From NCBI GenBank assembly GCA_021779995.1, contig JAJXZP010000027.1, positions 1 to 34,736 on the forward strand: a stretch of 34,736 bases of DNA, in the 5' to 3' direction. The translations under genes were made by a program, and so were the position numbers. Under the pieces are notes generated by a model that saw only the letters and a program-made list of their open reading frames with translations, made no database searches and had not been told where the DNA came from. This document shows, in pieces, positions 1,293-1,921 of this stretch (its first letter is position 1; every line of letters begins with the position of its first letter). This DNA is from a bacterium (GTDB lineage Bacteria; Spirochaetota; Spirochaetia; Treponematales; Rectinemataceae).

Positions 1293-1356
1293 CTTGATTC
1301 CGCCGGCCGAGCGGACTATTGTAACCGCGTGAGCCCGACGGTCTTTCGCGATGGAC

Positions 1357-1399
1357 CTGAGCCAATTTCAAAACTCGGTTAGTTTTGAAATTGGCTCAG
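1357..1399. repeat. Perfect inverted repeat, 19-bp arms, 5-nt loop
   Basis: Arms 1357-1375 and 1381-1399 are exact reverse complements around the loop CGGTT; the arm core reads GAGCCAATTTCAAAACT. It is AT-richer than the surrounding genome and is the first of three stem-loops leading into the DUF4160 gene. It has no poly-T tail, so a plain terminator is not obvious. Confidence 0.85.
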
Positions 1400-1436
1400 C
1401 ATTTGCTCCGGTTTCTTCGAAACCCTGCGCAAATGC
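1399..1436. repeat. Imperfect stem-loop, middle of a three-hairpin series
   Basis: Outer arms GCATTTGC (1399-1406) and GCAAATGC (1429-1436) enclose an inner perfect hairpin GGTTTC-TTC-GAAACC (1410-1424), with small unpaired stretches between the two stems. It abuts the first inverted repeat and lies 14 bp before the third. Confidence 0.7.
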
Positions 1437-1450
1437 CGCAATTTATGGTA

Positions 1451-1484
1451 GCTCTTGTAAAATGCGTCCGCATTTTACAAGAGC
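1451..1484. repeat. Perfect inverted repeat containing the DUF4160 start codon
   Basis: Arms GCTCTTGTAAAATGCG (1451-1466) and its exact reverse complement (1469-1484) flank a 2-nt centre. In RNA this would be a 15-bp stem with a 4-nt loop. The ATG of the DUF4160 gene (1462-1464) lies within the left arm, so the folded mRNA would hide the start codon. As DNA it is a 34-bp palindrome suited to a dimeric repressor. Confidence 0.85.
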
Positions 1485-1701
1485 CTCACCTTTCAGATTT
1501 TTCTTCTTCTCGCGCGAAGAATCGAGGATCCACGTTCATGTGCTCGGCCCCGACGGCGAGGCCAAGTTCTGGGTCGAACCTGCCGTAGAGTTGGCGTTCA
1601 ATTCGGGCTTCAGCGACCGAGAGCTCGCACGACTCGGGAACCTTGTCGCGAACCATAAAAAGGAGATCCTCAATGCCTGGCATCGCCACTTCCCCGGTTG
1701 A
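1462..1701 (+). CDS. DUF4160 family protein (possible toxin-antitoxin partner)
   Basis: 79 aa. The family signature is clear: FRFFFFSREESRIHVHV, then GPDGEAKFWVEP, then a helical end closing with AWHRHF. DUF4160 proteins are small, of unknown biochemical function, and commonly sit next to a DUF2442 gene in arrangements suspected to be toxin-antitoxin modules. Start at 1462 is preferred because the N-terminus MRPHFTRASPF then has the same length and spacing as my recollection of the family N-terminus (roughly MSPTVFR followed by an aromatic residue). No good Shine-Dalgarno precedes it, and the ATG is buried in a perfect palindrome. The stop overlaps the next gene by 29 bp, indicating translational coupling. 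Confidence 0.75.
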   Translation: MRPHFTRASPFRFFFFSREESRIHVHVLGPDGEAKFWVEPAVELAFNSGFSDRELARLGNLVANHKKEILNAWHRHFPG

Positions 1702-1921
1702 GATAGTTCAAGTGACGCGTTTCGGCATCTGGCTCGCGATCGAGGACGAAGAGCTATTCCTCGACTACGATCATTTCCCCTGGTTCCGGAACGCCACGAT
1801 CGCCGCGGTTTGCGCGGTCGAGATGCCGGCGAAAGGCCATCTTTACTGGCCCGAGCTGGATGTGGATCTGGAAGTGGACAGTATCCGCCGGCCGGAGGAC
1901 TTCCCCCTCGTCGCGAAATAG
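1673..1921 (+). CDS. DUF2442 family protein
   Basis: 82 aa: a short beta-rich protein with FGIWLAIEDEELFLDYDHFPWFRNATIAAV and a C-terminal HLYWPELDVDLEVDSIRRPEDFPL, which is the hallmark of DUF2442. The start at 1673 is set by AGGAG at 1661-1665 with 7-nt spacing; a longer frame from 1643 would have no ribosome site. It overlaps the end of the DUF4160 gene, so the two are made from one message. DUF2442 is generally considered the likely antitoxin or DNA-binding partner in such pairs. That role is inferred from genomic association and has not been shown here. Confidence 0.8.
   Translation: MPGIATSPVEIVQVTRFGIWLAIEDEELFLDYDHFPWFRNATIAAVCAVEMPAKGHLYWPELDVDLEVDSIRRPEDFPLVAK

Follow-up and report, generated by a model that had tools for sequence, protein, structure and literature searches.

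The three consecutive hairpins at positions 1357–1484 of the window (the whole stretch of 34,736 nt of spirochaete DNA that was analysed) very probably constitute a single non-autonomous MITE of 129 bp, which was inserted at codon 10/11 of a gene encoding a DUF4160 protein (the toxin partner in dhiTA-type modules) with duplication of ACCT, and which would be moved by an enzyme with DUF772 and DDE_Tnp_1 domains (IS1182/IS5-like). The copies of the element are dispersed, they have fixed ends and many are flanked by target-site duplications, and in the window the element interrupts a reading frame. A preliminary description of this DNA had read the hairpins as a possible regulatory array and had mentioned a transposable-element origin as an alternative for the outer hairpins; the latter proved correct in view of the copies and duplications, except that it applies to all three hairpins and not just to the outer two.

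The hairpins themselves are real, as first described, and their arm positions, complementarity and predicted fold all bear this out. Hairpin A has arms of 19 nt (1357–1375 and 1381–1399, 100% complementary) with a loop of 5 nt, hairpin C has arms of 16 nt (1451–1466 and 1469–1484, 100% complementary) with 2 nt between them, and the middle hairpin B is imperfect (arms of 16 nt at 1399–1414 and 1421–1436, 81% complementary). The fold energy of 1340–1520 is -79.6 kcal/mol compared to a mean of -41.6 kcal/mol for 200 dinucleotide shuffles (z = -10.1), and none of the 200 shuffles was equally stable. The region was also said to be AT-richer than its surroundings, which agrees with a GC fraction of about 0.50 against 0.65–0.77 in the intervals to its left. 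No Rfam family matched the window at the gathering score. Further to the left, a long open reading frame on the minus strand (225–1292) carries an imperfect 15-nt tandem repeat (families D1 and D2) and has no Pfam match.

The boundaries of the element (1359–1487, plus strand, left tip GAGCC..., right tip ...GCCTC) were set by full copies in other genomes together with the direct repeats, the two copies of ACCT lying at 1355–1358 and 1488–1491. Positions 1357–1358 are thus target DNA that by chance lengthens the first stem by 2 bp. In hairpin A (1359–1399), which corresponds to covariation helix 1, the left terminal inverted repeat comes first and its inverted copy second; hairpin B (1399–1436; helices 2–3) is central and of a type common to the copies of two other genomes (G078 and G052); and in hairpin C (1451–1484; helix 4) the inverted copy comes first and the right terminal inverted repeat second. 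The inverted copy inside each tip differs in its outermost bases (GGCTTTG, GGTAGC). The left tip GAGCCAATTTCAAAA (1359–1373, plus strand) is identical over 15 bases to one end of an insertion sequence of G078 (locus L233), and the right tip, which reads GAGGCTCTTGTAAAA on the minus strand (1473–1487), is identical at 14 of 15 bases to the other end. All full copies follow one common plan (GAGCC–hairpin A, hairpin B, hairpin C–GCCTC) with a length that is nearly constant per genome, mostly 142 bp in G012, 139 bp in G030 and 129 bp in G078 and the window. The full copies examined for duplications span 92–169 bp, and none of them contains a transposase gene.

The interrupted gene can be read on both sides of the element. 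Ten codons from a GTG start (1329–1358, plus strand) give (V)SPTVFRDGP, matching MSPAVYREKG of intact plasmid genes (L326 and L327), and the remaining coding sequence, intact from FRFFFFSREE... to the stop (1492–1701, plus strand), begins with FRFFFFSREESRIHVHVLGPDGEAKFW... in the 3′ flank. The intact genes used for comparison were L172 and the plasmid genes, two of which have annotated starts reading MSPAVYREKGFRFYFFSREEPRMHIHV (L327, Aeromonas salmonicida) and MSPAVYREKGYKFFFYSNEEQRMHVHV (L326, Shewanella baltica); across the site that the element splits in the window, the sequence of an intact relative is MSPAVYREKG-FRFYFFSREE. Since both flanks match intact DUF4160 N-termini, the element sits at codon 10/11, and this comparison of protein sequences also speaks for its mobility. 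Element and duplication together add 133 bp and shift the frame, and the frame of the original GTG ends after 17 residues at a TAG in hairpin A (1380–1382). Another open frame (1351–1701, plus strand, putative translation of 116 aa) runs through the element into DUF4160, with an ATG at 1351 and a further one at 1462 in hairpin C; the Pfam match to DUF4160 (E = 1.3e-14) covers its residues 48–111. No ribosome-binding site was evident by eye for either of these in-frame ATGs, and the ATG at 1462 lies within the stem. Judging from the stop in hairpin A and from ATGs that have no evident ribosome site, DUF4160 has most likely lost its function through the insertion. The downstream DUF2442 gene (1673–1921, plus strand; Pfam match with E = 5.3e-15), a putative antitoxin gene of DhiA type, overlaps the end of DUF4160 and is untouched by the element.

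According to one report, DUF4160/DUF2442 genes form the dhiTA toxin-antitoxin pair, which is active in Dickeya and Escherichia coli and has the toxin gene first (PMC8198452), and in Thermus a plasmid without the second open reading frame is reported to have given no transformants (PMC12724237). The window shares with dhiTA the order of toxin and antitoxin, the overlap and both domains, and differs in that its DUF4160 gene is split at codon 10/11; PADLOC gave no match for either DUF4160 or DUF2442.

This relationship to a toxin-antitoxin module gave some ground for the regulatory readings, in which the hairpins are either a series of operators for autoregulation of the pair or an RNA switch that hides the start codon and so regulates the operon. 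The dhiTA promoters are reported to be autoregulated (PMC8198452), the region folds strongly and, as was pointed out in the preliminary description, the last hairpin holds the ATG of DUF4160. On the other hand, the same element occurs at many unrelated sites, including genomes without any DUF4160 match, its copies are dispersed without relation to the gene pair, and in the window it interrupts a coding sequence. The ATG at 1462 does lie in hairpin C, but copies of this hairpin at other genome sites have it in their consensus, and it is therefore not a feature of the DUF4160 gene. Likewise, the usual family length of the protein was correctly noted (79 aa from ATG 1462 against 78–80 aa in relatives), but this is a coincidence. 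When other DUF4160/DUF2442 pairs were compared, four plasmid pairs were found to begin DUF4160 directly at the conserved N-terminus. Both regulatory readings are consequently highly improbable, and the many copies elsewhere, unrelated to such gene pairs, are what had been expected of mobile repeats instead of operators.

A related possibility is that the MITE insertion was recruited by the host, providing a new N-terminus or start (ATG 1351 or 1462), a folded leader or both, with DUF4160 still being made, perhaps at a low level. The frame 1351–1701 is open through the element, the product from ATG 1462 would have the family length, and palindromic elements within genes have been reported in several species (PMC3733652). 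However, the two ATGs have the shortcomings given above and many copies of the element are crossed by an open frame (at least one in 21 of 36 copies, with two each in the window, L009 and L013), so the frame in the window is no sign of selection or use. We regard recruitment as quite unlikely.

The search of the own genome for further copies, as had been proposed, revealed many copies and fragments beyond the window. With 1340–1500 as query, 30 rows were obtained at E ≤ 10, self-matches among them, the best other copy lying at C151:12755–12880 (query bases 20–145, 85% identity). Hairpin C was also turned into a covariance model (R1, built from 13 copies, with changes on both sides in 9 of its 15 pairs), which gave 76 rows in the own genome at E ≤ 1, corresponding to fewer loci given that many rows are the two strands of one palindrome. 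R1 matched 16 of 39 genomes at E ≤ 0.01, the own genome included; at E ≤ 1e-5 it matched 75 of the 291 genomes sampled from the order, and these belong to 44 of 82 genera. Many copies were found in genomes without any DUF4160 match (G012, G004, G030, G020 and G022), and the element thus exists as multiple dispersed copies with fixed ends. A pattern search of contigs yielded 40 loci, all inspected by eye and 18 tested with R1; six of them (L275, L276, L281, L287, L288 and L294) had no R1 match and were discarded as chance. A tip pair 1.43 kb apart in G022 (C48) was considered as an insertion sequence and rejected: one tip belongs to a truncated MITE, the other is a chance match, and a host gene lies between the two.

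Other repeats were observed during these searches. The best second copy of the own genome (L009, about 1190–1390 of its locus, on C151) has an extra hairpin abutting its left end that resembles a nested or tandem remnant. A second hairpin family exists in the same genome as elements or single hairpins (L020 at C310:4437, L021 on C78, L023 at C225:3134 and L024 on C183), with a left hairpin GGGTCTTTCAAAACTCGG..., a right hairpin loop AAGTCGTCCGACTT and a longer, variable middle; no duplications were found around L020 and L021. Additionally, a dispersed stem-loop of a separate repeat family (GTAGCCTCTAAA...TTTAGAGG-like) lies within about 10–100 bp behind the G030 copies L137, L140, L141 and L145.

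Target-site duplications were analysed in two sets of copies. In the first set (53 loci, from which 17 were left out as consisting of hairpin C only, and in which L140 has no left flank), identical 4-bp flanks were found in 15 of 36 full copies compared to a shuffled mean of 1.1; in the second (20 loci, three of which, L312, L317 and L318, were left out because hairpin A is missing), 9 of the 17 full copies have a 4-bp duplication and 3 a 5-bp duplication. Among the 52 copies of both sets with two flanks, exact 4-bp duplications occur in 24 and exact 5-bp duplications in 4, against means of 1.42 (maximum 7) and 0.17 (maximum 3) in shuffled pairings; duplications of 3 and 6 bp showed no enrichment over shuffles in these copies, and 24 of the 52 MITE copies have neither a 4-bp nor a 5-bp duplication. 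In one spirochaete MAG (L289, Spirochaetota) two tandem copies have AGCT on each side of each; an empty site for this locus was sought in G030 but not found, since the sequences on its two sides match separate contigs at 67–69%.

A candidate for the mobilising enzyme emerged from a search for DDE_Tnp_1 in nine genomes, which led to an insertion sequence of about 1.37 kb in G012. Its tips are GAGCCTCTTTCAAAAC, one of the two ends having a different first base, and it carries a 385-aa frame containing DUF772 and DDE_Tnp_1. The best NCBIfam model for this transposase is IS1182 (E = 1.3e-23), with a score of 83.7 bits that lies below the curated cut-off of 270 bits. Relatives of this transposase are present in 29 of the 291 genomes of the order. 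Ten copies of the insertion sequence have two visible ends (L227, L228, L230, L231, L232, L233, L240, L257, L258 and L259), and five of these are flanked by duplications (TCAA in L228, TTAA in L257, TCTA in L258, ATAT in L233 and ATCAT in L230), a matching duplication being absent in the other five. In G078, the insertion sequence L233 is flanked by ATAT at either end, has the tips GAGCCAATTTCAAAAGTC and GAGGCTCTTGCAAAAGTC and contains a transposase interrupted by stops, and the MITEs have the tips GAGCCAATTTCAAAAGTC and mostly GAGGCTCTTTCAAAAGTC, so that 15–18 terminal bases are common to both kinds of element at both ends. Terminal inverted repeats are thus shared with the larger, autonomous type of element in G012 and G078.

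Based on these termini, the DDE transposase of the DUF772 + DDE_Tnp_1 insertion sequence would bind tips of the form GAGSCnnTTTCAAAA and move the MITE in trans by cut-and-paste. The inverted copy of the tip inside each end turns that end into a near-perfect hairpin, the central hairpin at its conserved position completes the element, and the hairpins would serve, or accompany, its mobility. Element and transposase occur together beyond expectation: the element is found in 15 of the 29 transposase-bearing genomes and in 60 of the 262 others (one-sided Fisher p = 0.0014, a value that ignores shared ancestry).

These 60 element-bearing genomes of the 291 sampled, which have no transposase match, speak for another transposase as the mover, in which case the match of the tips to DUF772/DDE insertion sequences would be convergent. 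The transposase has no match in the own genome (88.6% complete, 334 contigs), nor in the element-rich G004, G022 and G030. The tips of the insertion sequence gave 16 pattern matches in the own genome, and seven regions that were read contained no transposase match; at one contig end (C252, L330) an IS-like tip with a short similar stretch was found, the transposase not being there, which is plausibly an assembly break at a repeat. Against convergence stand the 15–18 terminal bases shared at both ends in G078 and the equal length of the duplications; moreover, the tip pattern is absent from all the other PF01609 loci that were checked. We therefore consider a different transposase unlikely and retain the DUF772/DDE enzyme as the probable mover. 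Separately, one locus of G012 (L182, 1271–1565, on C12) is an internally deleted derivative of the insertion sequence with an IS-type left tip, a MITE-type right tip and no matching duplication; it may represent an intermediate stage in how such elements arise.

Dispersed stem-loops also recall REP/REPIN-type palindromes, which are moved by RAYT transposases of the IS200/IS605-like Y1 class. The tag GTAG of RAYT-linked REPs (PMC3733652) is often present at the foot of hairpin C, and one Y1 gene exists in the own genome (L104, C229:280–618, a Y1/RAYT-like gene with none of these hairpins nearby). However, the duplications and the pair of fixed tips indicate a DDE element, and Y1 genes do not track it: no Y1 match at E ≤ 0.001 was found in the element-rich G012, G004, G030, G020 and G022, the element occurs in 7 of 21 Y1-bearing and 9 of 18 Y1-free genomes, and hairpin C was found at none of 30 Y1 loci with flanks of up to 1.5 kb. 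Y1 transposases were accordingly rejected as the mobiliser, and such an origin is extremely improbable.

The ends of the MITE are near-perfect hairpins that are kept by compensatory changes, and the parent insertion sequences share the tips but are not consistently hairpins. In an alignment of 24 copies (A2), 22 of the 36 consensus pairs were changed on both sides, and 95.0% of the cells were paired compared to 33.8–55.6% with the partners slid; these controls leave shared ancestry in, and the structure itself came from this alignment. When the first 45 nt of 12 insertion-sequence ends were folded, 11 had values of -3.0 to -10.1 kcal/mol and the remaining end, from L240, reached -14.9 kcal/mol, whereas the MITE ends of 36 copies averaged -16.5 kcal/mol for hairpin A (weakest -3.2) and -20.4 kcal/mol for hairpin C. 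In our reading, the transposase may be helped to use the element by binding sites that come in pairs or by an end that is folded. A bolder and rather doubtful extension is that the DUF772/DDE (IS1182-like) transposase reads the folded ends as hairpins or cruciforms and not only as sequence, the fold being what selection favoured as the tri-hairpin family spread among spirochaetes. IS1272, a member of the IS1182 family with a stem-loop target preference, is reported to replace stem-loops at the sites that it enters (PMC5678879), which gives structure recognition by this group a target-side precedent.

The element agrees with known bacterial MITEs in being short and dispersed, in lacking a transposase gene, in sharing its termini with a larger insertion sequence and in its duplications; it differs in that each terminus is a near-perfect hairpin made of the tip and its inverted copy, with a third hairpin between them at a conserved position. 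The candidate transposase has the DUF772 and DDE_Tnp_1 domains of the IS1182 and IS5 families and is closest to IS1182 among NCBIfam models, but it scores below the cut-offs, and no duplications are reported for new IS1272 insertions (PMC5678879) in contrast to the 4–5 bp seen here. REP/REPIN systems (PMC3733652) resemble it in their dispersed stem-loops and in the GTAG motif, and differ in the duplications, the DDE-type tips and the Y1 association that is missing here. No description of a spirochaete tri-hairpin MITE was found in the open-licence literature that was searched; the event is an ordinary one, a MITE entering a small gene, and the element family appears to be unusual and undescribed.

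What seemed to be a regulatory array is thus a mobile-element insertion, by which a toxin-type gene has apparently been broken. It belongs to a MITE family that is distributed patchily over a whole bacterial order and whose ends are hairpins with compensatory changes (22 of 36 pairs), which offers a concrete way to ask if the secondary structure of DNA at the ends of transposons is recognised by IS1182-like transposases. If they do, the reading of structure at these ends would be the donor-side counterpart of stem-loop targeting by IS1272.
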